From Pascua guehoae (taxonomy: Eukaryota > Basidiomycota > Tremellomycetes > Trichosporonales > Trichosporonaceae), in the NCBI GenBank assembly GCA_001600415.1, contig BCJX01000004.1:124001-188000 (forward strand): a stretch of 64,000 bases of DNA, given 5' to 3'. Shown one piece after another: positions 16,001-54,613 of this stretch (the first letter of the stretch is position 1; the number at the start of each line of letters is the position of its first letter). The position numbers and the translations under genes were made by a program. The notes below the pieces were generated by a model that ran no database searches, had not been told where the DNA came from, and saw only the letters and a list, made by a program, of their open reading frames with translations.

Positions 16001-17119
16001 GATTGCCGTCGCTGTCCCGCCCGACAACGGTGTCGACGTCTTCACCAACGACGTCGGCTTTATTGCCATTGTCGAGAACGGCGAGGTCGTTGGCTACAAC
16101 GTCTCGGCCGGTGGTGGTATGGGTGTCACTCACTCGAACAAGAAGACGTACCCCCGTCTTGGTGACGTCCTTGGTTTCGTCACCCCCGAGGACGGTCTCC
16201 TCGCGGCCGAGTCGATCATGCTTGTCCAGCGTGACAACGGCAACCGCCAGGACCGCAAGAACGCTGTGAGTTGAAACCATGCGGTCTGTGAATTGTAACT
16301 GACCACCGCTAGCGTCTCAAGTACACGATTGACACGATGGGCTTGGACAAGTTCAAGTCGGAGGTCGAGAAGCGCATGAAGAAGCCCTTCCAGCCTGCGC
16401 GTGCGTACGAGTTCAACTCAAACCTTGACGAGTACGGATGGATCCAGGGCGCCGACGGCAAGTACCACTTTACGCTCTTCATCGAGAACGGCCGTGTGGA
16501 AAACTCGCCGCGCAACCAGTTCAAGACGGGTCTGCGCGAGATTGCCCAGGTGCACAAGGGCACGTTCCGCCTCACTGCCAACCAGCACGTGATTCTCTCG
16601 GACGTTGCGCCCGAGGACCTGCCCGAGATGAAGCGCCTGCTGGCCAAGTGGGGTCTGGACAACATCAACCACTCTGGCCTGCGTCTGTCGTCGTCGGCCT
16701 GTGTCGCGTTCCCCACCTGTGGCCTTGCCATGGCCGAGTCGGAGCGCTACCTGCCCATCCTGATCGACAAGGTCGAGAAGATTTGCGAAGAGGCCGGCGT
16801 CGGCAAGGACTCGCTCGTCATGCGCATGTCGGGCTGCCCCAACGGCTGCTCGCGCCCATGGGCCGCCGAGGTCGCGTTTGTCGGCAAGGCACCGGGCTCG
16901 TACATGATGGTCCTTGGTGGCTCGTACAAGGGCGAGCGCCTCACCAAGCCCTTCCGCGAGAGCGTCACCGAGCCAGAGATTCTCGACATTATGAAGACGC
17001 TCATCACCCGCTGGGCAAAGGAGCGCAACGACGGAGAGCACTTTGGCGACTGGACCGTCCGCGCGGGTATCGTCAAGCCCACCCTCAGCGGAAAGACGTT
17101 CTACGACGACAGCATCTAA
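13023..17119 (+). CDS. MET5: Sulfite reductase [NADPH] hemoprotein (beta) subunit
   Basis: Exon 1 is 13023-16265 and exon 2 is 16313-17119, joined in phase across a 47-nt intron (GTGAGT...GCTAG), giving about 1349 residues; yeast Met5 (Ecm17) is 1442 aa. The enzyme reduces sulfite to sulfide with electrons from NADPH via the alpha subunit, the last step of assimilatory sulfate reduction. The N-terminal half resembles the pyruvate-oxidoreductase-like region. A flavodoxin-like segment starts near residue 619 (LFASDGGNAEKVAKQL). The C-terminal half is the siroheme/4Fe-4S hemoprotein: GTYMQDDRDIRE, the two sulfite-reductase repeats, and cluster cysteines at about 1211 and 1217 (CVAFPTC) plus 1256 and 1260 (CPNGC). 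The start ATG follows a predicted 5' UTR intron and AAAAAG. Strong C/G third-position bias opens a long antisense frame, which I reject. Confidence 0.96.
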
Positions 17120-35618: not shown

Positions 35619-37645
35619 GCGTTGGCGTGTATCGCGTGGCATCGAGTCGAGAGTGTTGGTTGGTCAGGTGTCTCGAGTACAGTTTGTAGATCATTTTGTA
35701 TATGACAATGTATCACTCTCATCGGAACTGGACAGAGTGCATGAGCCGACGGACTTGCGTCCTATGCCGTGCGTGTTCGTCGACCGTGCCGGAAATCGTC
35801 ATCAATCTTCAAGACCTGGCACCACACTGCCTGGCCACAGAGGCTAGGCATAGATCACGCACTGCAGCTAACACTATGCTGCGAACAGTGAGCTAAAGGC
35901 CGCAGCGGTCCACAGCCAGGCGCAGCCGCAGTGGGAGCATGTAAAGTGCCAAGCAAGGGCACGCTCTGCGCGCTGCGGCGTAGACACATGAATGAAGGTT
36001 AAGGACGATGGTTGGAAAATGGTCTTGAATCGCAACAATGATGTGCATCATCGTTCGAGCGGAGGGATCGACCTCGGGGACTCGTCATATGCCTAGTGGA
36101 TTCTACAGTTTTCATCAGGATGGGTGGTATTGCGGTCGTAACGTACCATTTGATGACATCCGACCTCCGAACGCGGCTGCTGGTTCGAATCTCGACGACG
36201 CACCCGACGTGTAGGCGCCAGGGTCAGAGCAAACCCCCTGCGACGCGCGGCCGCGCTTGTAGTGAGCGACGGAAGAGTGGATATGAGGTCTCTTTTTTGG
36301 TTTTATCTTCTTTTTGGCTGGGCTCTGGGCTCTCCTCTGCTTGATCTTGCATACAGTACAAGCACGACGGGTTGGCTGCGGGCGCGGCTTGCCCAGAAGG
36401 ATCTAATGCTGCGTGGATTTGGTTTCGGCAATGCTGGGAAGTGTATGTCACTGGTCGAACCACTCAACTGTGCAACTGTGGACATGGCGCTGTGCCGTGC
36501 CTGCCAACACTGCCCTGTTAGTTCGAGTTACAGTATGCTGGAAAACGACAGTTGCAGTATGCGGTAGCGACAAGTACCCGGTACAGTGGTACAGTGAGTG
36601 GCGACTACTACAATAGTATACTCCTACCGGCGGCACACGCTGGGACGGCAAGCGTCATCATGAAGCTTGAAGCAATTCCCACAAGCGTGGGTCCGTCGCG
36701 CCTCGCGTCTCGCATCGGCAAGGGCTTGGTTCTACAAGCTATATTGGTGCCACGGCCACGGCCACAGGGACGCGAGGCCATGAGGGTTCAAAGGCTGATA
36801 TGCACCAGAACAGTATGAGAGTGAGCTTGTCGGCCATATCGTTTGATCCCAAGATGCAAGATGCCGATTCGGAGAACGTGCACAGCCTTATCCCTGCTGC
36901 CAAGAACACCTTTGTGCTATCAGCATGAGCTCACATTTCAACATGCAACACGGCATGCTGACGGTCATCTAGCTGCGCTATCGGGGTCGAGGCCTGTGAC
37001 GTGCATGCGAGGGCGATCAGGCGACAAGATGAGAGGCTGGAGGCAAAGGGCCGAAAGGGGGGCGTGGGGGGGGTGGGGGGCCAGGGATGACCTTGAGGGG
37101 GGCGGTGAGTTGTGGTGACGATGATGACGACAGGCACGGATATACGGTTGGACGGATCAGATTACCCCCCCCATCCCATCCCATCCCTTGCCTCGTTTGC
37201 CACCGCCTCGTCTTGTTCTGTGTCTGTCCTGTTCTGTCTGGCGCGCCAAGGGACTCATCTGACCGCGCTCTGATTCCATTTCATAGACACACATTCTTCA
37301 TTGTTCATCTACCCACACCTCCCTCACCCCTAACGACCTTCTTGCACGACCCATCTCTGCAGCCCATCACCACCATCATCATCCCCACCCTTCCCACCCA
37401 TCAGAAGCCCTACACGATAAACTACACCCTCTACTCCTCCCCTACCCGAAGCCAGACGCGACGCGACTATACAAAACGTCGGTGACAGACGAGAAACCGT
37501 GCTCTCCCCAACCCCCCGTTCCCACCGCCCGAGGGGTCCTCGCAGCCTTCCTGCCGTGCCCGCGCTCTCACAACAGCCCGGCAGCGGACGCGACCTGCGC
37601 ACGGACCCCTGCCAGCCTGCAACCAGCCCTTTCCCACCATCACCC
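35619..37645. other. Intergenic region containing one copy of a Pol III-like repeat
   Basis: No protein gene supported. The repeat at 36098-36297 is listed separately. C/T-rich sequence at 37150-37460 lies upstream of the Bzz1-like gene and is likely its 5' region. Confidence 0.45.
36098..36297 (+). repeat. Putative Pol III-type repeat, copy A (B-box-like motif, oligo-T end)
   Basis: Shares with 49100-49345 a core TTTTCA..TGGGTGGT, then (T/A)ACC-ATTTGATGACA, CC(G/T)CCGA-CGCGGT and a B-box-like GGTTCGAATC. Both copies end in GAGGTCT followed by a T run (TCTTTTTT here at 36290-36297). The internal box plus oligo-T end suggests an RNA polymerase III transcript or a tRNA-derived SINE-like element. 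It does not fold as a tRNA: the bases flanking the TTCGAAT loop do not pair. TGATGA also matches a C box, so a snoRNA-like RNA is an alternative. Confidence 0.4.
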
Positions 37646-40600
37646 ATGGATGTTGACATTGCGAGGCTGGCCCAACCCTCACCTGTACCCGTGCGGCCGT
37701 CACCACCGACGTCGCTCGGGCCGGGCGGGGATGCACCCACACCAACACCAGCACCCGCACCTGCACCTACACCCAAAGCCCCTACACGCCTAGATCCATG
37801 GGTGCATGCCGCGGGGCGCCCGCACTTTCTTCCCCCCGACCCCACGCCCGCAGCGGCGGCGCTCAACTTGATCAACGACTCGCTCGAGGTCGTCCGCGAC
37901 TACCGCGAGTTTGTGGACACGGTCGGGCGCCTCGAGGCCGAGTTTGGGCGCGGGCTCGCGGCCGCCGTCAAGAAGTTTGAGGCGCGCCTGGACACTGTCC
38001 TCCTTCCCACCCCGGGGGCGCCGCGGAAACCACCGCCGCCGGGACTGACAAACGCCATCCGTGTCCACTGCTCGCACCTGTCGACGGCGGCTACTCTGCA
38101 CCAGAAGCGCGAGGGCGCGCTCGCGAGCCAAATTTCCCAGCCCCTCACCAACCTCGAGCGCCGCGGGGCAGAGTCTGCGCGCCGCCTCGGCGCGTGGGGG
38201 CGCGACGTCCGCTCGCGGTGGGAAGTGGGGCGCGAGCGCGTCGACACGGCAAGAGCCAAATACCACGCGGCGGTCAAGGAGCACGAGGCGGCGTTGTTCC
38301 GCCTCCGGTCGGCGCCCAAGCCTGGCGACGGCGCGCGCGATGGCTCGGGCGCGTCGGTGGATAAGGACTGGGCCAAGCTCGAGCGCACAGCGGCAGAGAC
38401 AGAGGCGACACGCGCAGACAGGAAGCGCGCGTACGTCGTGGCACTCGCGGGAGAGGGCGGGTCGGGCGGCGGCGGCTGGGACCTTGCCGAGGGCGGGGGC
38501 GAGAGCGGATGGGGAGAAGAAGCGCGCCTCCTCTTTGGACACATTGAACAGACCCTCCTTGACCTCTTACTCCACCAGGCGCGCGAGGACAAGGCGCACA
38601 TTGACCTCGTGTCCAACGTCCTTGCCCGCGCCGAGCCGTCGTATGACGTTGTCGACATTGTCGAGGACGAGAACAAGTTCCTCGCGTATAACACGAAACG
38701 CCTCGAGCGTGTCGAGAGCGGAAGCACCATCATGACCACGGGCTCGGCGCGGCGCGCGGCCAGGCGTCTCAACAGCGCCAACAGCTTGAGTGGCGGCAAT
38801 GGCACACCAAACGGCGCTACCAGCCCCACCGGAAGCGGCAGCGCAGGGATCAGCAGTTCCGGGCGCATGACCAGCATGTACAGTATGAGCAGCATTAACG
38901 AGAACGGTAACGACTCCGCCAACGGCACGAGTAACGGCACGCCGAGCACAAACGGCAATGGCAGCGCCATGCTCGACCCCACGGCCACCTTAACCTCCTC
39001 CCCCACAGCAGAGACATCCCTCCTCCCCTCCGAAGAGCCCCCCGATTACTCGACCGCCAACCCCGCGTTTGCGTACCACGCCTTTGCCCCGCCGCCCGCC
39101 GCTCCAGACGAGACACCCGCGCTCAGCACAGACAAGCGCGTCGACCGCAACTGGCTCGTGAACCGGTGGGCGCGCAGCGCGAATGACCTCCGCGAACTCG
39201 CAGGCGAAGACGGCACAAGTGGAAAACTGGGCAACCTCCGTGAGTTTGACGTCTCCCCCGTCAACGTGGACCAGCACTGATGCCTTTAGGACGAGATCTC
39301 GCCAGCGTCCGCAGCCGGTGCGAGCAGCTGGCCGCAGACCGTGGCCTTGGCGACCCGGAAGAAATGTGGGAGAAGCGCCTCGCGGTCATTCGCGATATTG
39401 GGCCCCTGGAGCGCAAGGCCGCCGTGGCCCGCGCGGAAATGGCGTGTCTCGAGGGCGTGCTTGGGCGTGAGTGTGCCGTGGTTTCAATGGCGAAGAGGAG
39501 GTGGATGAGTTCGAGTCGGAACTGTGCTGGAACACAAGACACTGTGGGGTGGACAAGACACTGTGGGTTGGTGGACAAGACTCTGCGCGGTGGATGTGGG
39601 CGCCCTGGTGGGGATGTGTGTGCCGATGGCCGATAGATGCCGAACTGAAGCGGGTGTGGAGAAGGGCGGGCTGTGTGGTGGGCGGCGGGTCGGAGAAGTC
39701 GTTCAGGAAGGCGAGGAGGTGGTCTTCGTGCGCCTCGATCGTGTGGCGTGTAGTGGGGTCATGACCCATGACATGGATAAAGACTGCGGGATCGAGTGAC
39801 GCCCAGCGCAGGGCGCATCGTGTCCGAAGACGAACTCTGACAGATCGGGGTCGGGGACGAGAATAGGGGAGAGCACGGGCGTGGGATGGCCTCCTTTGAC
39901 TTGGATGAGGATTGGCGGGGCGGACCACACCCAGACCCTGGCGCGGTCCGCAGTATTACTTGTTCACTGTTGGAGAAGAGCTCCAGAGTGCCAGAACTAT
40001 TCCGCTAACAGCAGCCGCACCCGCGCCCGAATTGCCTCACGAGTTCAAGGACCGCCAGTTCCCCAAGCCTGCACCATGCGATGCCTGCGGCCAGAGTGTG
40101 TGGTCTCTGAAGCACGAGCTCTCGTGTCGTCTATGCGGGATCGCGCTGCACCACAAGTGTGCGCTGCATGTCGATCCCGAATGCACCGGGCTCAAGTCTA
40201 CGCGTCGCAAAACGCTCAACGGCCCAGCGGGCCTCCTGAGACGTTCAATCACGCACAATCCCTTGCGCCGGCGGTCGATGATGAACCCGCACGGCGGCCC
40301 CCAAGAGTACCGCCCCGACAAGGACCGATTGGAACCACTGCGCGACGACGAACTGCAAGTCTCACCGTTTGTGCTGGCAGACGAAGAGGACCGCACGGCC
40401 GTGGCGGCCGCGCTCGACATGGTCCCCCAGCCCAACGTCATGCTCGCGCACGTTCACCATTCGTACCCCGCTGCGAACGCGCAGGAGCTGGGTGTCCTGG
40501 GCGGCGAGGTGGTGCGTGTCCTCGAGCCCGATCTGGACGGGACAGGGTGGATCCGCGTGCGCCGCGGCCTCGAGGACGGCGATGAGGGCCTGGTGCCCCA

Positions 40601-40871
40601 ATCTTACCTCGGCCTCGTCGGCACCACCACCCCACCACCCGACGGAGGCGCGGGCGCCTTTATCGTTGCCCTCTTCAACTTCCCGCCCCCAACACACCCG
40701 CTCGGGCGCGGCGAGGTCTCCATCACCCAACACGCAGTGTACGAGCTCACCCTCGAGGGCATGGCGTTTGACGAAAACTGGTGCGAGCTGCTTGTTCCAC
40801 AGCCCAGTGGCGGGACGGTACGCAAGCGCGGGCTGGTCCCGAAGACGTACGTCAAGCAGCTCGGCAGCTAG
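37646..40871 (+). CDS. BZZ1: Bzz1-type protein: F-BAR, HR1-like, C1 and two SH3 domains
   Basis: Exons 37646-39239, 39290-39466 and 39976-40871 join in phase to about 888 residues. After a Pro-rich N-terminus, an F-BAR domain begins near LINDSLEVVRDYREFVDTVG. Exon 2 adds a helical HR1-like segment (RCEQLAADRGLGDPEEMWEK). Exon 3 holds a C1 zinc finger from about H612 (CDACGQ, CRLCGIALHHKC), then SH3-1 (VMLAHVHHSYPAANAQELGV, ending GLVPQSYLGLV) and SH3-2 (ALFNFPPPTHPLGRGEVSIT, ending GLVPKTYVKQL). F-BAR-C1-SH3-SH3 is the Bzz1 layout; Bzz1 curves the plasma membrane at endocytic sites and activates Las17/WASP-driven Arp2/3 actin assembly. Start is ATG 37646 (MDVDIARLAQ); an upstream frame lacks ATG. 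The second intron (~509 nt) contains a TGGACAAGACACTGTGGG repeat and its acceptor is weak. Confidence 0.87.
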
Positions 40872-41448
40872 GCGGTGTAGATGTTGTTTGGACAGCGCCG
40901 AGGGAGTGGTGCGTGATACCGCCGGTAATGATTGTTTGCGTTGTCGTGCGCGGCACGGAAGCGTGCTCTCGATTGGGTGCGAAACCCCGGAGTGACGAAT
41001 GTACGAAGGGAGCATGCAGGGAGTGCACGAGAGCTTGGGAGCAGTAGTACATACAGTAGACGAGTGCATATTGTAAGCTGCGCAGTGCGTCGCGTGCGTA
41101 GACAGACGCAGGACATTGTCGAGTACAACAGAGATGCCATGCAACGAAATTCTTTACGTCGATCCAGGTGTGTTCAGCCCACACGAGGCAGGTGACTAAC
41201 TCGGAGTAACTTCTCGGCCAAGCCCGACGTCGTCCGCACTGAGAACCGAGATGTTGATCTGTGGCTCTCAACTTGTAGCTCGAGCAATCTTCAGACATCA
41301 GTCCACCGCTTTCCACCGACGGCGAGCACAACTCGACATGTGCTCAACTCTGCCCACCCCTTCCTCCCGTGCCCATCAGCTCCGTTCTGTTGACACGCCG
41401 CGTCGCCGGCGGCGCGGCCGAGCCCTCGGCGCTGCCCGAGACATCATG
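40872..41448. other. Spacer; 3' half belongs to the duplicated tRNA-Pro unit
   Basis: No gene. From about 41280 the sequence resembles the region upstream of the tRNA at 48677 (for example CGACGGCGA(G/C)CACAACT near 41317 and 48512). Confidence 0.55.
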
Positions 41449-41553
41449 GCTCTCGTGGTGTAGTGGTTATCATACTCTCTTAGGGTTCTGTTCAGTCCTA
41501 AGCTTGTTCTTCCTGACTGGGAGTGGGCCCCGGTTCGAATCCGGGCGAGGGCC
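41449..41553 (+). tRNA. tRNA-Pro (anticodon AGG) with a 32-nt intron, copy 1
   Basis: Acceptor GCTCTCG pairs with CGAGGGC. The D arm is GTGTAGTGGTTATCAT. Anticodon stem CTCTC pairs with GGGAG, and the loop TTAGGG...T gives AGG at 41482-41484. The intron is 41486-41517, and its CCTAAG pairs with CTTAGG of the anticodon arm. T arm is CCCGG-TTCGAAT-CCGGG. A TTTT stop follows at 41557. The TTAGGGT loop is typical of eukaryotic tRNA-Pro(AGG). Confidence 0.88.
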
Positions 41554-41940
41554 AACGTTTTGCTCCTGGTGAAGACGGACGTGGACGCGTGCTGTGGACG
41601 ATTCTGAAATAGCCCGAGGGCGAGCTCTACGACAAGAGAAAAGACTCTCATGTCTACTGGGATCTGTCATCTCCACTATTATTGCCACTCTGCAACTTGA
41701 ACCACTTGCATGCCGTGCACCTGCCCCAATGCCTGCCAGCCTGGCGACGGTCGCACACCTACCTGCCCGACGTCGGTGTGGCACCAAGGTCGAACACAGG
41801 CATGTGGCACTGCACTCGGGACACCAAATCCGCCCCACCGCCACTGTCTCGGTGTCAACCAACCACTACCGCGAGCTACTTCCCAAGCCAACCTCCCTCC
41901 GTCGTCGACATTGGAGTATGGCGAGACAGAAAAAAGACTT

Positions 41941-42045
41941 GACCCTCGCCCGGATTCGAACTGGGGCCCACTCCCAATCAGGAAGAACAAGCTTAGGAAC
42001 CGACTAGACCCTAAGAGAGTATGATAACCACTACACCACGAGAGC
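41941..42045 (-). tRNA. tRNA-Pro (AGG) with a 32-nt intron, copy 2, slightly degenerate
   Basis: Same layout as the other two copies on the opposite strand. Differences: intron TCTAGTCGG-start instead of TTCTGTTCAG, an A-C mismatch in the T stem (CCCAG against CCGGG) and a G-T first acceptor pair (CGAGGGT). The intron still contains CCTAAG for pairing with the anticodon arm. A T run follows at 41935-41930. It may be a decaying copy. Confidence 0.75.
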
Positions 42046-43302
42046 TCGTGTCTTTTCTGGAGCATGTGTGGTGGCGCGCCGGCCGGGGATGGGACCTGTC
42101 TCGGCAGTAACGTCTTTGGAGCTTGGGACGGCACGATAGGACATGATGGACACAGAGATGGCCTTTTTCCCGCCTGGGCCTTGTGGGGAGAGGAGAGGGC
42201 GATTTTTTGTTTGTTCGCGAGCTGACTAGCACAGCAAGGGGCAAAGTGGCGAAGGAGCGATGGACGTTTTCCTGTTGCACCTGGAGAATAAAGTACAGGT
42301 GCGACTGGCAATGGGGTCGCCAAGCTGACCTCGGTCGCACGCAGGGCCGCATACAGCAAGGTCCATCTCCCACCCTTGTGGGCATGTTTCGAGGCTGTAG
42401 TCGTTGATGTGCATAATGGACATTACGATATGGTACAAGTTACCCTGGCGCACAGTTTGCTACTGGTACGATCGGATTGATGGAGAGTGCCATGCTCAAC
42501 ATTGAATGAGCTCAAGGTGGCAGTCTCAATTTTCCAGTCGGGGATGTACCTGCTTAATGAAGGACCAGAGATACGGCGCACAAGGATCTGCCAGCGCTGC
42601 TGTGGCGCTGCCAAGACTGGTTTGCAACACGTACAGCGGCTATTGAGGAGGCTACCAACGCTTGTGGCACGGCCAAAGGATACATTTCCTCAGCGGAGAC
42701 TAGAACAGTACATGTGAGTGTCACTGATTAGGTGTACAGGTGTGACCAAAAAGTATTGAGACTGCCACGTCAAGGTCGGTCGCACGTACAGCCACATTGC
42801 AAGGCCTCATACAGGAAAGGCAGGGCATAAATGGGGGGAAATGTAAGGACCACCATGGCGACTTGCAACTCCACCGTTGCGACTTCAGGTTCGTCGTTGA
42901 GTACAATTACAACATTGTACTGAGCACAATATCGTACAGGTCACCCTGATGCACGGCTTCCTGTCCGTACCATTGATGAGAAGTGTCCAAGCTCAACGTC
43001 GGGCGCGACCGAGCTCAGTTTGGCAATCTGAATACTTTGCGGAAGCACCTGTACCAACACCGGTGCTGACGCTGCACCAGTAATCGCGGTCCTGGGCATG
43101 CTTTGGGACGAGAGCAGCACGACATTCATCGTGAGCAATTACACACTACAATAAGGACTAAAAAAAAACATCTTCAATGTCCAGTAATCTCCGTCCAATG
43201 TCCAAACAACAAGTTTAATAAAAGTACGTCGTCACGCGGAGCGAGAAGAAAGAGGAAAAGAGCACGCGCGCTCGGGTTGTCGACCGGGTGTGGTACGGCG
43301 GT
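42046..43302. other. Repeat-rich spacer with a diverged ~115-bp duplication
   Basis: No gene supported. A diverged pair, about 42417-42533 and 42916-43034, shares ATAT(G/C)GTACA(A/G)GT(T/C)ACCCTG and ATTGATG(G)AGA-GTG(C)C-A(T)GCTCAAC. The second copy is preceded by GTACAAT-TACAAC-ATTGTAC, a perfect 7-bp inverted repeat (42900-42919). The remainder shows nothing recognisable. Confidence 0.45.
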
Positions 43303-44685
43303 TTAGTAGCCCCACGGCTGGCAGGCGTTGCAGTAGTTGCCGTTCCAGCCCTTGTTGAGCCTGAAGCCCTTGTGGCGGATACCGCGCTTAAACCTGATGG
43401 GGCGGAGGGTGCGGTCCGAGCAGTGCCAGACCTGGACGCCCTCGCGGGTGCAGCCAGCATAGCGGCCACCGCGGATGCCACAGGACGCGCCGCGGCGGAC
43501 GCCGCGAATGTTGCAGTAGCCGTGGTTGTTGATCCACGAGTTGTAGCGACCCCTGCGACCGCGGACGGTGCAGCCGTGACCCGAGCCGAGGGCGTTGAGG
43601 ATGCCCTTGAGGATGGCGAGGAGGAGGAAGGTGCGCTCCTGGGGCTGGGCGGCGACGTCGCGCGAGTCGAGCGTGGCGACCTCGTTGTCGCGCTTCCACC
43701 ATCCGTTGCCGCGGCAGCGGTTGCAGACCTTCTGGCCGCGGGGCAGGTAGTAGCCGTTGCGGACGCTGCCGCGCTTGAAGGTGATGGGGCGGATGCGGCC
43801 GTCGCGGCACTTGAAGAGCTGGACACCCTGGCGGTAGCCGACGCATGTCGAGCCCCAGGGTCCCTGCTGGCGGGGACGGAAGTGGCGGAAGTTGAAGTAG
43901 CCACCCTTGCACACGTAGCCGTTGACGCGGTTGCGGCCGATCCAGCACGAGCGGCCCCACGGGTTCGAGTTGTGGCCCACACGCCAGCCCTTGAGGGTCA
44001 GGCCCTTGAGCCAGAAGAGGAGGAGGGTGCGCTCCTCCTCGGCGCGAGCCTCGAGCGACGAGTCGTCCGCGTCGCGCTTGGACAGGGCGTCGTCGTCGGC
44101 AACGCAGCCCTTGCACAGGCCCGTCTTTTCGTCGACCTCGGTGTCGAGCTCGGCCGGCGCCTGCCCAATCACAAAGTCGTAAATCTTGCCATCGCTGCAC
44201 TGGAACAGCTGCTGGTCGTTGACAATGTCCTTGCCCACGTACGTGCACTGGTCGCCGTCCTGCCCCACCTTGTCGCCAACGTTGAGCGCTCCCCAGTCCA
44301 CAGACGTGTCGGCAAGCGCCGCGTCCAGGCCCCCGTCGCGCTCCTCAAACTCGCGCGGGTCCAGACCCTGCAGGTCGCGCTTGCTCGACCCGTCATTGTC
44401 AGAGCAGTCGGTGCACAGCCCATTGTCGCCCATCTGCAAGTTGGGGATCGCGTCGCCCGTGTCCACCGTAAACGAGTAAAACTCCTTGTCGGGGCACTGG
44501 AACACTTGGTCCCCCCCGCTCAGCAGCTTGCCGACGTACGCGCAGTCGTCGACCTTGTCGCCAAGCTTGAGCTGCCCAAAGTCGACAGCCTTGGACGTGT
44601 CCAGGCCAAGGTCATCGTCGCGCTCGTCAATGACTGCTGCGCTGGCGATTGCAGGAAGGAGTGCAAGAAGGATCGTCGCCTTCAT
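43303..44685 (-). CDS. Secreted, Kex2-type multi-module Cys-rich precursor (two acidic, two basic modules)
   Basis: A single 460-residue exon. Start ATG 44685 gives a clear signal peptide (MKATILLALLPAIASAA). Exactly three KR|D sites (102-104, 203-205, 331-333) cut the rest into four segments. Each holds the same pattern: Cys, 10-16 residues, (Q/V)x(F/W)xC, 27-30 residues, CxxC. The cysteines are 48/64/91/94, 147/163/191/194, 281/293/321/324 and 412/422/452/455, with extra Cys at 247, 259, 372,391 and 402. Segments 1-2 are acidic (my counts: net about -11 and -15). Segments 3-4 are strongly basic and Gly/Arg/Trp-rich (about +18 and +15), and each starts with an acidic stretch ending E-R before a hydrophobic helix (LLLFWLKGLTLKGW; FLLLAILKGILNALG). 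Kex2 cleavage in the late Golgi would release four peptides. Function unknown: antimicrobial, effector-like or wall protein are possibilities. A TATA box lies 77-83 bp upstream. Confidence 0.8.
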   Translation of the reverse strand: MKATILLALLPAIASAAVIDERDDDLGLDTSKAVDFGQLKLGDKVDDCAYVGKLLSGGDQVFQCPDKEFYSFTVDTGDAIPNLQMGDNGLCTDCSDNDGSSKRDLQGLDPREFEERDGGLDAALADTSVDWGALNVGDKVGQDGDQCTYVGKDIVNDQQLFQCSDGKIYDFVIGQAPAELDTEVDEKTGLCKGCVADDDALSKRDADDSSLEARAEEERTLLLFWLKGLTLKGWRVGHNSNPWGRSCWIGRNRVNGYVCKGGYFNFRHFRPRQQGPWGSTCVGYRQGVQLFKCRDGRIRPITFKRGSVRNGYYLPRGQKVCNRCRGNGWWKRDNEVATLDSRDVAAQPQERTFLLLAILKGILNALGSGHGCTVRGRRGRYNSWINNHGYCNIRGVRRGASCGIRGGRYAGCTREGVQVWHCSDRTLRPIRFKRGIRHKGFRLNKGWNGNYCNACQPWGY

Positions 44686-44761
44686 GGTGGGCCGAATTAA
44701 GTGGGTGTCGAAAGGAAATGTCTTGCGGGATGAAGAACTCTGGAGGGTCATGGCCCCCGCC

Positions 44762-44768
44762 TTTTATA
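44762..44768 (-). promoter_or_regulatory. TATA box of the secreted precursor gene
   Basis: TATAAAA on the minus strand, about 77-83 bp before the ATG at 44685, in a G-rich context. A clear TATA at this spacing fits a regulated, highly expressed gene and supports the chosen start. Confidence 0.6.
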
Positions 44769-47009
44769 TCTTTCCGAGCACACTCATGGCGGACTCGTCC
44801 GCCCACAACAAGAATGGCTCCACTTGGTTCGGGAAGAAGAGCCAGCCATTCATCGTATGACTGTGGCCGTCCAGAGTCCAAAGTCAGAGACCTCTCTCCT
44901 TCTGCCTCTCCGTCTCCCTCCCTCCCCCTTCCCTCTCCTTCTCCTCATCCTCCTCCTCCCACTCCTTCCCCCTCCTATTCCTCCCCCCTTCTTCGATCAG
45001 ACGGAAACTTCTTGTGACGAGCCGTTCTGCTGCCACTCTCAGACCCTAGCACCACGTCACGGGCCAACAACCACCATCTACGATCCTGTACAGTACGGGA
45101 ACCACATTGGCCGACTCGTCTGTGTCCTCCAGCGACGGTCCTCTCCGATCTTCTCCTTGGCGACACCTAGTCGACAGACGCAAGCGGCAGGTGGAGAACA
45201 ATCAACAAGAATACATTGTAGCAGCACCAAGCTAACCCACTCCCCGTCAGGATATCTCGATAAAGCAAACAACGTAAAACACGTACTTGCCAAACGTACA
45301 TATACGTCGTGCTGAAACATTGCGCCACTTTTGGGTACCCCGTCCCGCGTCATTGCCAGCCTCCTCGGTGCCAACCCAATGTCCGTTTGTGTCAAACACA
45401 CCTGTAGTCTCCTCTTCTCTGGACCAGTGCCTGCTGTTTACGTGGTGCATCCGACGGACCGCCCGGCTCGTGGGGTCAGGTACCGTACCGTGTTTTCAGG
45501 GATCGGGCATTGGTTGTTCGCGTTTATCGTAATCGCGAGCCGAGGAGCGCGTCGTCTCCCCGCTTTCGAATCGAGTAAGCAAGGTGGCAGGCGAGGCGCT
45601 CCCGCGGGGCCCACGAGGACCAGGCCTTGACCACTTTTTCCCCGCATAGGCGACGTCCAACACTTGGCCACAACTGTAGTCTTGGCCCACCAAGGCCGGC
45701 CTGACCCAAGGTTGGACGCGAAACGTCTCCCCCTGCAATTGGCGCCCGAGAAACTGGACAGCGTCCCGTCGGGTGTGGCTGCCAACGTCACCAGGCTGTC
45801 CATTGGCCACGGCCCCATGGGCATGACGCGTATCTCTTTCAGACCCAACAAACTTGTTCGTTCCCCGCACGCGCGGTAGGAACAGGCCCAGCCGGGAATA
45901 ATGAAGATCGATTACGGCGCGGGCGCGTGCTGCGACCACAGCCGCCGCAGGCAGCGGTACGGCCTTGCAGGCACGATCCGCGGCTCCGAGGCTCCGAGGC
46001 TCCGACTGAGGGCCCATCTGATACTCGTCCAAACATGCCGATTGTGGAGTCTTGTACAGTAAGTAGTCTTGTCCGGCCCGTCCATGCCCGGCCCCCGTCG
46101 TCAACTGGTGTTCTGGACACAAGGGAAGTCGTGGTGCGGCTCAGATCCCACGGCGCGGTTCAGATCCCGCCCGGCCCAGTTTGAATTGTTTCGGTTCGAC
46201 TTACCCGCCCAGGCGGTTGTGGATAGTCTGTGGCTCAAACCTTGGGACGTACCGCCACGTACTCTCGGGTTTATGTCGTGCCCGTTCTCGTTATTGCACC
46301 GCATGCAGCATGAGCTGCCCACTCTGGCTTGCTTGGGACCGTCACGTGTCGGGCTCGTTGCCAGCCATCAAGTCAAGAGTGGCACCAGCCAATGTTCGAC
46401 CATACAGGCTGTGCATCGGGATGCGCTCACGGTGCCCGAAGTACAGTAAACGGCGATATTCGTAGGGACAAGGCTTCTCGGCAGCGACACTGCTGATCCC
46501 TATTCCATACTCATCATTGATCTTTATCCCGCCACTAGATTCTCGGCTTTCTTAACGGCATGGCCTGTGATGCGATGGAACAGCTGATCGTGGTGGAGCT
46601 GCGGGAGCTGCGGATATTGCTGGATCTAGAACGGCTGCGGATCATGGCCAACCAGGCCTGCGGATCATGACGAACATAACCTGCGGATGGCAAAGTGACT
46701 TGGAACAAGTCCTTGTTCTGCAACTCTGCAGCAACTCGCAATATTCGCTGATGTCCGCGGGGGGGATGATCACGAGGCCCGCACCCTACTTGTTCCATCA
46801 ACACGGCATAGATATTCGATCCTCATCACACCCCAATGAGCGCACGATCATGAGGACCCGTCGCTCGCATTCAAGGATATTAGCAAGGATATTACCATGG
46901 CCCCAGAATCACTAGTGGCTTGTGGCTGGTACTCGCCCATCCCTCAGCCCATACATTGATGTCATTGTGATTAATTTAGAAATCATGTCTCTCTGACGTG
47001 TAGAGATAG

Positions 47010-47123
47010 CCCGACTCGGTCACATTGGCGTAAGAATCAATCCAACGATGTTTCATCACTCCAAACGGCCAAAACCCCGACTCAAAAATCTCGTAGGCTC
47101 GTGACAATGGTGACCGAGTCGGG
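47010..47123. repeat. Perfect 14-bp inverted repeat with 86-bp loop
   Basis: CCCGACTCGGTCAC at 47010-47023 and its exact reverse complement GTGACCGAGTCGGG at 47110-47123. A further CCCGACTC lies between them near 47088. It could be the ends of a small mobile element or a hairpin RNA. Confidence 0.6.
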
Positions 47124-48676
47124 AGGCATAGTGAACCTTGACCCACGAGATCTCAAACAGGACGGACCTGACAAGAGTTTCCCGAGTATCTGTGACACAA
47201 CAATGTGGTCACTAGTTCACAGAACATGATATTCGGACTGACAGGATGAGCCCGCAACATGACGTGTTACGACATTGCCGTCTCGGGATGAGCTTCGCGG
47301 TGAGGTCGAGTATGCCCCTGTTCCACTCCTCAATATGGGAGAGGCTGGTGCGCTGATCATTGCGTGTACATTATGTTTCCAGGTCGTGGGAGCCGAACAT
47401 CAAACACACTCTTGCCAGGCTGGGTGCGGGCTTCATAGCTGGCCCAACACGAAGAAAGCCTTGGCGAAGAGGCCTGCCCGAAGCCACCAAAGACGAGGGG
47501 CAACGACAAGCATTCCTGCCCGACTGTCTTGGCTGTGATAATTCCCCGTCTCAGCCGCGTTCCAGACAGGTTGATCAAGGGAGTCCGTGCAGCTTACTCT
47601 CTCGACAGCGTTTAGGATATCTCGGTAGAGGAGGACTTGTTGGCGTTTTTACGTTGTCACCGTGGACAGTACAAATGCCCGCCAGCCCGGCTCATGTACT
47701 GTCTTTAGTTACATCTACAAGCCATCATCTATAGGAGGAAATTGGCAGCATTACGGCGACCGAGCGGCGTCTGGGGATTACGCCGATAGGCCAGCCAGGA
47801 TACACAGTGACGATGATGACGGAGACCCCAGCACGTCTGGGTCTGAGTCGCGTGACCGTGTGCGAAACATGATAGCCACCAGTCGTCTCTCCTATCCGTC
47901 CAGAACAGAGATGCTGCAGTTGGCGAATGGATGTAAAGGACGCCACAAGAGTGAGGATGCAGCAACAAAAGACCGGTCACGCCGATTGATCCAGTGCCAA
48001 CATTTGTTTACGAGAACCGAAACGCGGCCCACAGACTCGGGTCTGTGCCTGTGCAGTATAGTACATCCGCGCACTCTCCCGGTCCCAAAGTGGCACTTGG
48101 GCTTGGTGCCGCGTCCAGCCTTCTCCTCGGTGGGGCTTGGGGCTTTGCTTGGCAGACGTTATGGCATGGGCGGGATATGGTGTTTGTCGGCCCCGCACCT
48201 GTCCAAACGTTTAGAGGACGCGATTGGGCGCAACTGATGTGCCGCGGGCGTGTTCTGGGTCCCCTCAGCTCTGTGGAACCTGCGAAAACAAAGCTAACAA
48301 AGCTGAAACACCCCATCGGACGCGCGGACGTGTGGTCGTAATTCAACGTCCCGCACGGCTTCCAGGGATCAGGCGGTGGGATGACGACGAGGGGAGGGAT
48401 AGTCTCGACCCGGGAGCGGGAAGTGTGTGTTCTGAATGGTTTCGAATGGCCGATTTGGTGGGCTGAGTGCCACATGCGATGTTCGACCTTTGGTGCCACA
48501 CTTTCAAACAGCGACGGCGACCACAACTTGACATCTGATAACGACCATGTACGAAAGCTCTGCCCACCGCTTCCTCTCTTGCCCATGATTAGCTCTGTTC
48601 CGTTGCCAGGCCGCGTCCACGGGACCATGTCGCTGGGCGGCGCGGCCGATCCATTCGCGCTGCCCAAGCAATCATG

Positions 48677-48781
48677 GCTCTCGTGGTGTAGTGGTTATCA
48701 TACTCTCTTAGGGTTCTGTTCAGTCCTAAGCTTGTTCTTCCTGATTGGGAGTGGGCCCCGGTTCGAATCCGGGCGAGGGCC
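48677..48781 (+). tRNA. tRNA-Pro (AGG) with a 32-nt intron, copy 3
   Basis: Near-identical to copy 1, including the intron (48714-48745). Acceptor GCTCTCG/CGAGGGC, anticodon AGG at 48710-48712, T arm CCCGG-TTCGAAT-CCGGG, and TTTTT at 48787-48791. The upstream flank resembles that of copy 1; the downstream flank (TTGACACCAAGACAGTGGCG) resembles that of copy 2. Confidence 0.9.
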
Positions 48782-49099
48782 TTGCCTTTTTGGCATTGCT
48801 ATCCTCGTGCAATGTGGACGAAGGGGATGTTGGTTGGAAGATAGCTCCCAGTGGTTAATTGACACCAAGACAGTGGCGGTGTGGATTGGCTGACTGCAGC
48901 TGACTGGCGGGATCACGACCGCCACCCTGGCCTCTGCCTGCGCACGTGGCACTACGGTGGAGGTTGAGGGTGTTGTATTAGCGGAGGCAAAATTAATTAG
49001 TGGAAGGGTTATTGTGGATGGGGTAAATAGAATTCAAATTCGCTTTGCCCACCCAGGAGGCCTCTCAGGGCTGGCTGATGTAGGACAAAAGATTGATGA

Positions 49100-49345
49100 T
49101 TTTCAACTGGGTGGGTGGTGAACCGGCAATACACACCATTTGATGACACCCCGGCCTCCGACCGCGGTCGCCTGTTCGATTCCCTCCTGGGGGGTCGACG
49201 GGCGGACGACGATGATATGACGCTACGAGCAATTGTGTCCGAACATGGGTTAACCCCCACTGTGCTCTTCCGCGACGGTTCCGTCAGACGGCTCGCCCAG
49301 GCTGTAGTGGCTTGGGCCTCAAGCAACACATAGAGGTCTTCTTTT
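49100..49345 (+). repeat. Putative Pol III-type repeat, copy B
   Basis: Homologous to 36098-36297: TTTTCAACTGGGTGGGTGGT, ACACCATTTGATGACACC, CCTCCGACCGCGGTCG, B-box-like TGTTCGATTCC, and a GAGGTCTTCTTTTT end (T run 49341-49345). Copy B is longer than copy A between the B-box-like motif and the T run. Confidence 0.4.
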
Positions 49346-50283
49346 TGCTTTTTCGCTCCCTCTGCTTGTCCGTCCTCCCGTCGGCCAAGTGTTATCTGTT
49401 TCCATCTTTACATCGTCCTTCACTCGCCTCCGAACACGAGTACTGTCGTCACGCTCTGCCGTTTGATGCGTTTCGTTGTATGTAATCTGTCTTCTGGATC
49501 AGAAGGACGGCCAAGCACCTGCTTGGATCACAGATGAGATGCGCGACTGCCAGGCCACAACGTCCTGTGTGCTTCCCGGTCAGATGGATCTGGCTCATGA
49601 ACCTGGGCCAGATCTGGCGGAACTCCTTTCTTGAGGTAGCGAGATTCCCCGTGGCCCCATGAGGTGAATACCATGAGTACAGTCTGTGCTATACTTTCAA
49701 GCGAGTCGGGCGAAGAATGCGCCAGTCAGTCACAGGCACAGGGCTACACGGGCGACATGGCCGGTTCCGAGCTTCCTGCAGATGGTGGACCCCTCTGCTA
49801 CTGTCAGTGTAGTTGAAAGCTCGGATGCTGTGGTGCTGAACACGTGGTGAATGGTGTCCTCTGGGTACGCGAGCAGTTGAGCTGCGTCGAGTTGGGTCTG
49901 ATCTCGGTGCTACGTGCAGATGGAAATATGGCGACATTTCCCAAGTCGAGAAGTACAAGGGGTACACAAGGTCGAGAATAAGACAAGGTACCACCAGCAC
50001 GGTGATTCAGGTCTACGTCTACACCCAAAGATGGGTAGAATCCCAATGGCAAGAGTACATACGCATGAAGAGTTTGACATGTCGACAGCGGGTTCACCAG
50101 TTGAAAGCGCAGGGGCCACGCCCCATAGAACCCACATCCATTAACATACGCGTTGTCAGAGTTACATACATCAGCTCAGCTGCCAGCCAAGACAAGGAAG
50201 TTACGGTCTCACTCGATCTACGGTTCGATACAGTACACTCTCCCCCTCCCCATCTACACTCCCCTGGCCACCAAACTTGCATC
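49346..50283. other. Intergenic region
   Basis: Nothing recognised apart from lower-GC sequence leading to the 3' end of the gene at 50284. Confidence 0.45.
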
Positions 50284-51957
50284 CTACGCCAGCCACCCGT
50301 CAGCTTGACGAAGCTCCTTCTCGTACCGGTCGACCTGGGACTTGAGTTGTTGATTCTCGGCCGCCAGCGTGGCGTTCAGCTGCAGCAGGTCATGGACCAG
50401 AGAGTCCTTAGTCTCCTGGGGTCGTTCCTCGGCTTGCGTCGGGTACGCCTCGTCTCCAAAGCTGTCTGGGAGAAAGAGGGCGGGGTCGATAGTGTCGGGC
50501 TGGAAGCCGAAGGTTGCGAGGTCGGCATGCCCTCCTTTCATTGTTTGCTCCGCTTGCTCTGGTAGATCTGCTTGCTGGGCCAGTTGGGGCGCCTCTGCTT
50601 GCTCGGCCAGCTCCGCGAGGCCGGCCTGCTCTGCGAGTTTCGCTATCTCTTCCAGTTCGACCTCTTGGGCGAGTGTGAGGGGCGAATCTTGGGCGTTGTC
50701 GATGCTAGGGGGTGCTGGGGCAAAACTGGCGGGGGTGCCTTCCAGACCATCCCATGCCGGTTCGCAATGCACGGCATCGGTATCGATCGTATCTGACGTA
50801 GCTTCAGTCTCCACTGGGACAACGGAGGAATTGCGACTGGCAGGGGGCGAAAAGAGCTGCTCGAGCAGGTCCGACCTGACGTGTGGCGCCAGGAAGGGGT
50901 GCTCGGACGACCGTGGATGCTGGGGTGGGCCCGGTGAATCCTCTCGCTGGGTTGAACGGAGAAAATGCGGACCTGCGCTTTCGCCGAGGCATTCGATATC
51001 GTCGTCTGTTTCTTCATCGTCGTGTTCGCACGGGCTGGGGGTCAATTTGTGAGCTGAAAACGCCCGAGGACGTGTCCCAGTGTCCCCAGGCCAAAATCGT
51101 ACGCACCAAGTCCAGCCCCGCGGGGCATGATCGGCGTCAAGTGGCGCACAAAGGAGGTCACCTGGGTCGGGCCCTTCGTGCTGGGAATCGACACCGAGGC
51201 GCGAATGCCCGCCGCCATCGATAAGCTGGACGTGCCAGTCGACGTTTGCGCATGACCGACACACACCCTGGAGTCAGTAGTCTGCGCGATATACTCACAC
51301 CAGCGAATAGAGAGTCAAGTGACAGTGTCGACGTACCGTCAACAAGCGCCCGGGCCCAAACCAAATCCCCCACTTGCCGCCCGGATACCGCAAGGGAAAC
51401 GCCCACCACCGCTGGGCAATGCCCGTCTCGCCGAGGGAACGCTTGCTCCCCACACTGAGCGTGAGGGTGACGACGACCCGCAGCGCGTCCACAGTGTAGT
51501 CGTCGGACGTGTGGATGTCGGCATCCCGGCCGTTGCGGCGCAGCTCGAGGCCGCGGTGGTGCGCAAACTCGGTCCAGGCGCGTACAATCTGGCGTTTCCT
51601 GCTTTGTGAGCGCTAATTGCCGATGGAAACAGCGCACCAATACTTGAGTGGTCGGGAGCGTGTTGTCTTTTTCATGTAGCCGTCGAGCCTACAGAGTCAG
51701 CTGAAGGTCACAGCAGGTAGTGGCATGTCGGACAGCCGTCAGACGATCAAGACGTACACGGCTGACAGAGAGTCGCGGAAATTCTGCACCTGGAGAACAA
51801 GCGGGAGACGCTCTTCGGGAGACAGGTCGAATGTCACTGCGCGAGCCGGGAAGATGCTCTTGTAGTCGGCACCCGGGCACAGGACCGAGAGTGTGAATGC
51901 GCACGCATAGTCGTCGAGCACGGCGACGTCACGGGGCAGGTACTGAGGGAGGACCAT
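50284..51957 (-). CDS. Unrecognised five-exon protein with acidic middle and C-terminal coiled coil
   Basis: Exons 51957-51758, 51688-51644, 51598-51337, 51281-51107 and 51053-50284 join in phase to 483 residues; donors GTACGT, GTATTG, GTACGT and GTGCGT; acceptors GTAG, GCAG, GCAG and TCAG. The N-terminal 200 residues look folded: MVLPQYLPRDVAVLDDYACA, LDGYMKKTTRSRPLKKRQIV, LRVVVTLTLSVGSKRSLGET and WWAFPLRYPGGKWGIWFGPG. The next part is acidic (CEHDDEETDDDIECLGE) and Ser/Pro-rich, then repeats of the type LAEQAGLAELAEQAEAPQLA. The C-terminus is a leucine-zipper-like helix (LLQLNATLAAENQQLKSQVD). No family recognised. The layout (folded N-terminus, acidic linker, zipper) would suit a nuclear regulator, but I cannot assign a function. 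The long single-exon frame 50284-51264 includes intron sequence and overstates the coding part. Confidence 0.62.
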
Positions 51958-52332
51958 GGAGCGCTGAGCGCAAGAGGTTGCGAGAGTGTGTTGTGATGGC
52001 ACTGGAAAAAACGAGGTAAAAGATGATACAAGAGTGGAATGTGGAAGCAAGCAAGTAAAGAACGAGGGAAGGAAGGAAGGAAAGGTAGTCTGTCATTGCG
52101 AGGAAGGTCAGTAGCACTTTGAAATGCTCGACCCATTCTCCTTCCTTCCTTTCCTTTTCTTGCTCCGAGTGTTAGTTAACCTTCTCTCCTTCCGAGTTTG
52201 TCCCTATTCCTGGCCAAAGTCATTGTGAACAACAGTCAGCGGCATAGAATAGCGCCCAGGGTGGATAGATGTACAGTAGCATCGCTGCCAGTATGCGAGA
52301 GTGGTTGATATTGCAGTACAGCCCGTTGCTTT

Positions 52333-54613
52333 TTAGAATGTAGTGGCGTCGCGTCCAAAGAAGAACGTGACGGTCCAGTAGACGGGGATGAGAATCTTGT
52401 TGCGCCAGCCCATGGCCTGCGTGACGTAGTATGAGCGCCAGACAATCCACGCGACGAAGCTGGAGGTCAGTCACGTTGCACCAGTGAAGGATCTTGTTAA
52501 GTCGAGTACCGCTACTCACCCAGCCAGCTTGCCACGCACGCCCTCGACGTTCTTCTGTGTGCGGTCCATCATTGCCTTGCGTGTCAGCACGCGGCTCCCC
52601 TTGGCGTGACGACCTACCCTGTAGTCTCCGATGAAGACCATGCTGCCGTAGTTGTTCCACTTGAAGGGCTTGAGGGTGGAAAGCTCCTTGCCGCGGCCCA
52701 CGTCGTTGAGTGTCTTGCTCATGTACGTGGCCTGCTGCGACGCGACTACGGGTTAGGCAGGGTGTGCGCGTAGAAACTCACCCTGGGCAGTTGCGGGCAG
52801 GCGATCGCCGTCCTCAGGTGTCGAGTTGTCACCGATCGCAAAGACGTTTTCCATGGGTTTGCCAGATGCGTCCAGCGCGCGGAGGTGAGGGTCGACTTTG
52901 ACTCTGCGTCGAGGTGGTAAGCACAGGGGGGCAATGTTAAAGGGGGGAAGCGACGTACGACTTTGTCTTTGGGTCCTTGCTCACACCATTGAGGACATCG
53001 ATAAAGGGGTTGTAGACGATACCGGTGGACCACACCAGGAGGCCATACGGAACTAGAGTCAGCTATACAAATCCAGTCAACCCGTGACTCACTCTTCTCG
53101 CCGCCCTCAACCTCCATATGCTCGGAGCGGACGGCCGTGATCCTGGTGTTTGGCACGACCTGAATCGCCTCTCGGTGGAACTTCTTTTCGGCATATTGGC
53201 GGAGACCCGCGTCAAACGCCATGAGAATGCCCGGTCCCACATCGAAGAGCTTGATGGTGATATCCTGGTGGATGTTGGGGTACAGCCTCTTGACGTCCGA
53301 CTTTACAAAGTCGTGCAGCTCGGCTGCAAACTCGACACCGGTAGGTCCGCCGCCCACGACGCAGAAGGACAGCAGCTGCTTGCGCTTTTCGGGGGTGCAG
53401 TGCGGCTCACTCGCCATCTCGAGGCACTCGAGCAGGCGTACCCGGATCGCACGCGCCTCGCGGACGTCTTTGAGAAACTTGGCATATTCGAGCACGCCGG
53501 GGGTACCAAACGAGGCCGCGCGGCATCCCGTCGCAATCACCAGCTTGTCATACGGCACGTCGTAGGAATCTGCTGGTGTGTAGGAAGGATACAGCTCGGC
53601 ACCCTGGATCGGTCCTGGGACCTCGGGGAGGTTGTCCACGAGCGATGGGAGCGCGGGGCCGACCCGCACAGTGCGCTTTTCAAAGTCTTGGCGGTTAGTC
53701 ACTCGCAAACTCAAGGCGGTCATGCTGACAAACCCCGCACGGCCGTGCACCCACTTCAACCCGTCTCGCGGCATCAAGTGCACACTACAACGCAGTGTGG
53801 GCATCATCGGCAGATCTCTGCCGTCCGAGGTGCGAACAGCACACCCGTACACCCATGAACAGCACGTGGGCGGTCCTCAATGACCGCTCACGCGAACAAA
53901 CAAAGCTCGCGTGGGAAGCACACAGAGGTTACACTCCTCACTCAAGCCCTCACTCAAGCCCTCGCTCAATACCTCACTCAAGCCGCGCACCACCCACACA
54001 GACCAGCCCAACTCACCAATCTTGTCCGCCCACGCCTGCTGGTAAGTCACATCCCTGATCCCGCGCACCGGCTCGATAGCGCACCGAAAGTCGAGCGTCC
54101 CCACACATGTCGACGCGAGGAGTGGTGTAAAGGAAAAGTACGAGTTGGGGGAGATGACCGTGACTGAGGGGGTGAGTGTGTGTTCGATGCATGCTGGGGG
54201 TGTGATTCAAGCTGCCCAGTAGGCGGTGGTGAGTCGCGTGCGCGTCCCCTCAAGTCCAAGGCTCGCTTATTGGAGATTGCGGACAAGGCTGCCCCAGCCA
54301 TTCCATTCCAAGGACAACTCCAACGATCCAAGCCCCAAGCACCCAAGCACTCAAGCACCCAAGGATCCAAGCACTCAAGCACCCAAGGACCCAAGGCCCA
54401 CCCCCCACACCAAACCCATCAGCCCAACGTCCACCACTACGCACCATCATACAGCGACTTGTCCGCCTTGCGCGCGAGATTGTACCCGCCCCATCCCGAG
54501 CCGAGGATCACCAGCCGCTCCTTGCCGGCGGGAGACGAGCTCGCGAACCCGCGCGACAGCCCGGCGCGCAGTGGGACGGATCGCGCGAGCAGAGTAGACC
54601 TGGAAGCCAGCAT
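52333..54613 (-). CDS. Alternative (type II) NADH:ubiquinone oxidoreductase, mitochondrial
   Basis: Eight exons join in phase to 478 residues: 54613-54445, 54163-54017, 53686-53093, 53052-52959, 52903-52782, 52745-52618, 52575-52520 and 52459-52333. The N-terminus is a mitochondrial presequence (MLASRSTLLARSVPLRAGLS). The first Rossmann motif is VILGSGWGGYNLARK (residues 35-49, FAD); the second is VVGGGPTGVEFAAEL (215-229, NADH). Other family signatures are SYFSFTPLLASTCVGTLDFR, YDKLVIATG, GVLEYAKFLKDVREARAIR, NVFAIGDNS and a C-terminal membrane-associated end TVTFFFGRDATTF. NDH-2 enzymes oxidise NADH and reduce ubiquinone without pumping protons. I cannot tell whether it faces the matrix (Ndi1) or intermembrane space (Nde1); no EF-hand insert is seen. 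The first two introns (281 and 330 nt) contain AAGCACCC and CACTCAAGCCCT tandem repeats. Confidence 0.92.

Follow-up and report, generated by a model that had tools for sequence, protein, structure and literature searches.

In a 64,000-nucleotide stretch of the Pascua guehoae genome (contig BCJX01000004.1 of assembly GCA_001600415.1, positions 124,001 to 188,000 of the forward strand; hereafter the window), we found an intronless gene of 460 codons whose product contains four cysteine modules, two acidic and two strongly basic, separated by Lys-Arg sites followed by Asp (KR/D, the slash marking the predicted cut) and each directly preceded by a Glu-Arg (ER) pair. This architecture is well supported, and the sequence suggests that the protein is secreted, cut and functional in pieces. 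Our preferred explanation, to which we give a probability of roughly 0.4, is a Kex2-processed modular precursor in which the acidic modules escort or shield cationic modules that would act on surfaces or membranes. The architecture is common to the gene and to one paralogue in the same genome; the segregation of charge is present in the 460-amino-acid (aa) protein and not in the paralogue.

The gene and its four modules

By its codon use, the open reading frame (ORF), which the ORF listing of the window places on the minus strand from 44685 to 43303, is a real gene. Guanine-plus-cytosine (GC) content at its three codon positions is 0.625, 0.464 and 0.887, and its codon score, with the sulfite reductase of the same window as reference, is +0.44 nats per codon in frame and -0.58 and -0.90 out of frame. 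An open run of 460 codons has a chance of about 2e-7 at the local composition; the opposite strand is likewise open, with a poor codon score (-0.19). The acidic half (44074-44634) has codon scores of 0.14 and 0.29 and a third-position GC of 0.86-0.87, both below those of the basic half (43306-44073; 0.66 and 0.64, and 0.94 and 0.92). The gene has a putative TATA box of its own, as an initial annotation of this DNA had stated, and a second in-frame ATG, 66 bases upstream of the ORF start, lies only 11 bases behind this TATAAAA and therefore probably outside the transcript. The signal peptide claimed in that annotation corresponds to a signal-like start, seen by eye in this gene and in the paralogue.

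After cuts at the three KR/D junctions, the four segments carry net charges of -11, -15, +18 and +15, exactly the two acidic and two basic segments of about -26 against +33 that had been counted earlier, and a charge gap of this size between the halves was reached by 0 of 100000 residue shuffles. The whole precursor has a net charge of +7. If cut at both KR and ER, modules 1 to 4 (m1 to m4) would carry -12, -14, +21 and +18. The basic modules are rich in Gly, Arg and Asn and contain Trp and Tyr. A hydrophobic, weakly cationic stretch follows ER in m3, m4 and both modules of the paralogue (q1 and q2) and is absent from m1 and m2.

The modules share the pattern C-x(9-15)-C-x(26-29)-CxxC with QxFxC or QxWxC, so that the motif of the initial annotation is present with its spacings off by one. 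Of the cysteines, only those of the closing CxxC are conserved throughout the alignment of the six modules, the first Cys falling in differing columns; six columns are invariant and hold E, R, a Gly, an Asp and the two Cys of CxxC. Identity is 40% between m1 and m2 and 36% between m3 and m4, each pair's score being reached by 0/1000 shuffles, which upholds within the pairs the earlier claim that the modules arose by duplication. Acidic-basic pairs are weaker, with 26, 147, 4 and 410 of 1000 shuffles reaching the score for m1-m3, m1-m4, m2-m3 and m2-m4, respectively. In comparisons involving the paralogue, the corresponding counts are 1 for m1-q1, 10 for m2-q1, 778 for m1-q2, 69 for m2-q2, 8 for m3-q1 and 0 for m3-q2, m4-q1, m4-q2 and q1-q2. 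The profile of m3, m4, q1 and q2 matched m1 and m2 at scores reached by 0/2000 shuffles each. With the profile of m1 and m2, the counts per 2000 are 0 for m3 and q1, and the match is poor for m4 (23) and q2 (156); with that of q1 and q2 they are 1, 46, 0 and 0 for m1 to m4. Common descent of the acidic and basic modules is likely from these sequence comparisons.

A 145-aa exon of the acetyl-CoA synthetase of this genome (33.6 Mb in 28 contigs) has as its best PDB match chain 5ifi, the enzyme of Cryptococcus neoformans (289 bits, the next at 208), which makes a tremellomycete likely. Queries against the genome were the two complete proteins and three single modules out of six, so that gene counts are lower bounds, and at least one further gene was found. 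This paralogue on C3 (L003:1498-2262, minus strand) encodes 254 aa in the order signal-like start, ER, hydrophobic stretch, Cys module, KR/S, acidic spacer, ER, hydrophobic stretch, Cys module, with that single KR/S site between q1 and q2; q2 is nearest to m4 (37% identity). It appears to repeat the processing plan of the 460-aa protein, which we count in favour of our explanation. Another weak match, on C2 (E 0.038), was judged spurious. Near the paralogue, frames at L019:7419-9813 (minus strand) presumably belong to a protein resembling family 3 beta-glucosidase. L013:679-1656 (minus strand) encodes a secreted-looking protein of 325 aa with an acidic Asn-rich middle, the C-terminal part of which we take to resemble a double-psi beta-barrel.

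The family had not been recognised in the initial annotation, and searches of Pfam, the PDB, NCBIfam and protein sequences likewise gave no assignment. The FKBP-type isomerase domain of Pfam (PF00254) matched residues 40-91, in m1, weakly (15.8 bits, E 0.018; 15.1 bits, E 0.03 with m1 alone), with no FKBP match listed for the other modules; it was rejected, since the score lies below the curated cut-off of 21.1 and only 51 of 94 profile positions are covered. Among PDB sequences only an FKBP2 chain (E 0.28) appeared for the 460-aa protein and none for the paralogue, the NCBIfam scan gave no credible match, and protein sequence searches returned no relatives outside the source genome, these being weak negatives. 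Structure prediction of the modules, proposed earlier, was done with AlphaFold for two single modules. Both models are poor: the mean predicted local distance difference test score (pLDDT) is 53.9 in one and 54.5 in the other, a small beta core reaching about 76-79. Fold searches with them gave no significant match, and they allow neither a confident fold nor a family to be assigned.

Candidate processing sites

The initial annotation had counted exactly three KR sites, each followed by Asp. The three KR/D junctions are there, but the protein holds five KR and two RR in all, the two further KR (FKR/G) occupying one shared alignment position in m3 and m4. These internal sites may be buried, or may be cut into chains that stay linked by disulfides. 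They and the two RR had been overlooked, as had ER and the hydrophobic stretches with which the basic modules begin.

ER stands directly before all six modules of both proteins, its E and R being invariant, and every ER dipeptide lies in a spacer or at a module start (4/4 in the 460-aa protein, 5/5 in the paralogue). The pieces from KR to ER are acidic in 4/4 cases (-3, -5 and -3, and -7 in the paralogue), and those after the two signal-like starts are close to neutrality (-1 and 0). The six spacers contain 12 Arg and no Lys, the two acidic modules in their predicted mature form no Arg and 10 Lys (Fisher 1.5e-6), a contrast that arises partly by construction, as the spacer borders are set by ER. 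In the remaining four mature modules, Arg and Lys number 38 and 22 (Fisher 1.6e-4 against the acidic modules), and the avoidance of Arg is therefore confined to the acidic ones.

Kex2 accepts Glu among its P2 residues and prefers aliphatic residues at P4 (PMC8528282); the ER sites in front of the six modules have I, F, E, P, I and V at P4. A kexin gene is present on C16, where the P_proprotein domain was matched with E 4.9e-16 when read across a probable intron (the match is split, with one TGA inside if introns are ignored) and where the frame before it, the catalytic part, has Kexin of the PDB as its best match (E 1.6e-118). From the motifs and the presence of this gene, KR/D is probably cut by kexin.

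Possible roles of the acidic modules

We propose that the signal peptide would be removed and the precursor secreted, that kexin would cut at the three KR/D junctions, and that kexin or another Arg-specific protease would cut after the module-start ER, as the invariance of ER and the distribution of Arg suggest. The short acidic pieces from KR to ER would be discarded, leaving two Arg-free acidic modules and two hydrophobic-headed cationic modules nearly without Asp and Glu. The cationic modules would act extracellularly on anionic surfaces or membranes, in an antimicrobial or toxin-like way, and the acidic modules would travel with them as soluble escorts, preventing aggregation or premature binding in secretion.

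The role as escort or shield is favoured in the light of the following precedents. In Ece1 of Candida albicans, as is predicted here, one secreted precursor with KR cuts yields different peptides; the extra peptides shield the hydrophobic active peptide from aggregation during secretion, reportedly not mainly against self-toxicity, and one neighbour peptide left fused suffices to silence the toxin (PMC12153327). The active Ece1 peptide has 31 aa, whereas here homologous Cys modules of opposite charge are found, and the likeness may be one of plan only. In complex linear-peptide precursors of spider venom (PMC6832493, PMC9788040), a Glu-containing motif before Arg (e.g. EEER) closes the spacers and the mature peptide follows, several times per precursor. 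These precursors are animal, carry an inverted quadruplet motif, not KR, at the spacer's other end and, in the published descriptions, consist of linear disulfide-free units, unlike the modules here with 4, 4, 6 and 7 Cys (m1 to m4) and 5 and 9 in the paralogue. Finally, in an artificial case, an acidic pro-peptide kept a cationic peptide silent, and complexation was not seen (PMC6057973).

A further comparison is with fungal Kex2-processed repeat proteins (KEPs; PMC6339444, PMC7329392), which combine, as the 460-aa protein probably does, a secretion start with repeated units and Kex2 sites between the units of one precursor, and which average 1.00 per strain in Tremellomycetes (PMC7329392). 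Units are separated by Kex2-type sites here too, KR/D between the four modules and KR/S in the paralogue. The repeats of KEPs are identical or nearly so, whereas neighbouring modules here share 36-40% identity, with far less between the pairs, and the predicted units, of 79-111 aa with Cys, are unlike those described for KEPs.

Several observations weigh against the escort or shield explanation. The paralogue precursor has a net charge of 0 and its predicted mature modules -1 and +6, so that charge segregation is not needed for the basic job of the family; nothing else speaks as strongly against an essential role of charge balance as this neutral paralogue. Acidic and basic residues face each other on mirrored columns 7 times, against 7.25 expected (3278 of 5000 shuffles reach 7), which gives no support for direct face-to-face pairing of the modules. 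With these two results and the poor models, the self-neutralising precursor of the initial annotation retains its duplicated modules, its nearly cancelling charges and a kexin in the genome, and loses support for shielding by binding. The helical moment of the four hydrophobic stretches was matched by 836, 151, 776 and 831 of 2000 self-shuffles; not being clearly more amphipathic than these, the stretches are not called amphipathic helices. Odd Cys numbers in the predicted mature m4, q1 and q2 (7, 5 and 9) fit poorly with self-contained, disulfide-closed modules; a Cys in each would be expected to stay free or to pair with another molecule. As to cutting, kexin might also act at the internal KR of m3 and m4 and at the two RR of m4, VIDER has at P3 an Asp, unfavourable for Kex2 (PMC8528282), and F and E, at P4 of two ER sites, are not among the preferred residues listed in that source.

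The neutral paralogue, with the same architecture, and the unmirrored charges would equally suit secreted peptides that work independently of one another and share a transcript for economy, as the products of other Kex2 polyproteins do, and that differ in charge because their targets differ, with no shielding involved; each module moreover has its own start and cut sites. We find this possible though somewhat doubtful, as charges so extreme, opposite and nearly cancelling are a match that independent divergence would not need. That the charges match could instead reflect a gene for both polyanion and polycation modules, homologous to one another and matched so as to neutralise each other. The acidic pair would then descend from the Cys module that also gave rise to the basic pair, with escorting, silencing or co-assembling with the latter as its task, and KR and ER processing would rid the mature basic modules of nearly all residues of the wrong sign and the acidic ones of all their Arg; this we hold to be doubtful. 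Co-assembly into an extracellular material, as a coacervate or a disulfide-linked layer on the cell surface, is unlikely in our judgement. It would make use of the matched opposite charges, of Gly/Arg/Asn-rich basic modules with Trp and Tyr, of the hydrophobic heads and of the thiols that odd Cys counts leave for cross-links, and has a precedent in Rep1, whose Kex2-released peptides form surface fibrils (PMC8528282), but the modules are neither short nor near-identical repeats, and two structure models suggest a small beta core, with no more than moderate confidence. Quite improbable, finally, is an effector-like protein with a specific target in a host or competitor, its acidic half serving as a folding pro-domain. 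In a survey of 120 fungal effectors, about 30% were predicted to have pro-domains processed by Kex2, and several needed them for folding (PMC8528282), and the searches, as weak negatives, found no relative outside the source genome; the acidic part, however, consists of two homologous modules and not of a disordered pro-domain.

If the acidic modules do guard the basic ones, the active module would, within one polyprotein, have given rise to its own inhibitor or escort after being duplicated and reversed in charge. The Kex2 polyproteins of Tremellomycetes, of which few have been reported, would also gain a Cys-module type. If ER is indeed a second processing site, surveys of dibasic sites alone may overlook such cuts.

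Features and surroundings of the gene

Table 1. Positions of the gene, its predicted parts and nearby tRNA genes in the window
Feature	Residues (aa)	Position	Strand	Remarks
Whole coding sequence	460 aa + stop	43303..44685	minus	ORF, codon bias, paralogue
TATAAAA upstream of ATG, predicted function		44762..44768	minus	sequence
Signal-peptide-like start	1-17	44635..44685	minus	judged by eye
Predicted N-terminal pro-piece VIDER	18-22	44620..44634	minus	ER invariant in six modules
Predicted mature acidic module 1	23-101	44383..44619	minus	net -12, 0 Arg, 4 Cys, calculated isoelectric point (pI) 4.05
KR/D site 1	102-103	44377..44382	minus	
Acidic spacer ending EER	104-116	44338..44376	minus	
Predicted mature acidic module 2	117-202	44080..44337	minus	net -14, 0 Arg, 4 Cys, calculated pI 4.05
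KR/D site 2	203-204	44074..44079	minus	
Acidic spacer ending EEER	205-219	44029..44073	minus	
Predicted mature basic module 3	220-330	43696..44028	minus	net +21, 1 Asp, 0 Glu, 6 Cys, calculated pI 11.4, hydrophobic start
Hydrophobic head of module 3	220-234	43984..44028	minus	
Internal KR (FKR/G) of module 3	304-305	43771..43776	minus	
KR/D site 3	331-332	43690..43695	minus	
Acidic spacer ending QER	333-351	43633..43689	minus	
Predicted mature basic module 4	352-460	43306..43632	minus	net +18, 1 Asp, 1 Glu, 7 Cys, calculated pI 11.1, hydrophobic start
Hydrophobic head of module 4	352-366	43588..43632	minus	
RR in module 4	377-378 and 397-398			
Internal KR (FKR/G) of module 4	433-434	43384..43389	minus	
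tRNA-Pro(AGG) with intron		41448-41554		
tRNA-Pro(AGG) with intron		41941-42045	minus	
tRNA-Pro(AGG) with intron		48676-48782		

The repeat-rich island in which the initial annotation had placed the gene dissolves on closer view mainly into the gene's own modules and three intron-bearing transfer RNA (tRNA) genes. Over 36000-54000, a repeat search found direct repeats in three families, as well as three inverted pairs. The duplicated modules make up two of the direct families, and the third, together with two inverted pairs, consists of the three tRNA-Pro(AGG) genes, which account for most non-coding repeats near the gene and were not reported by the default tRNA scan or by Rfam. A 671-base query with two of them had 86 matches genome-wide, many places being matched by both arms. 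The remaining inverted pair, 38872-38914 and 46275-46317, flanks the gene with 43 bases of 72% complementarity and is unexplained. Four of eight tandem-repeat rows are one pyrimidine-rich stretch upstream of the gene (44891-44989).

The Pfam scan took in 20 of the 68 window ORFs of at least 150 aa, and no partner gene was apparent among these 20. Nor did they include a DUF3328 gene, a feature of ustiloxin-type precursors of ribosomally synthesised and post-translationally modified peptides, though exon-split genes could escape such a scan. Matches were obtained in 4/20, to sulfite reductase, Fungal_trans, SH3 and pyridine nucleotide-disulphide oxidoreductase. The sulfite reductase subunit-like frame (13023-16274) is open over 3.2 kb, and a frame of 1091 aa is open on its opposite strand.
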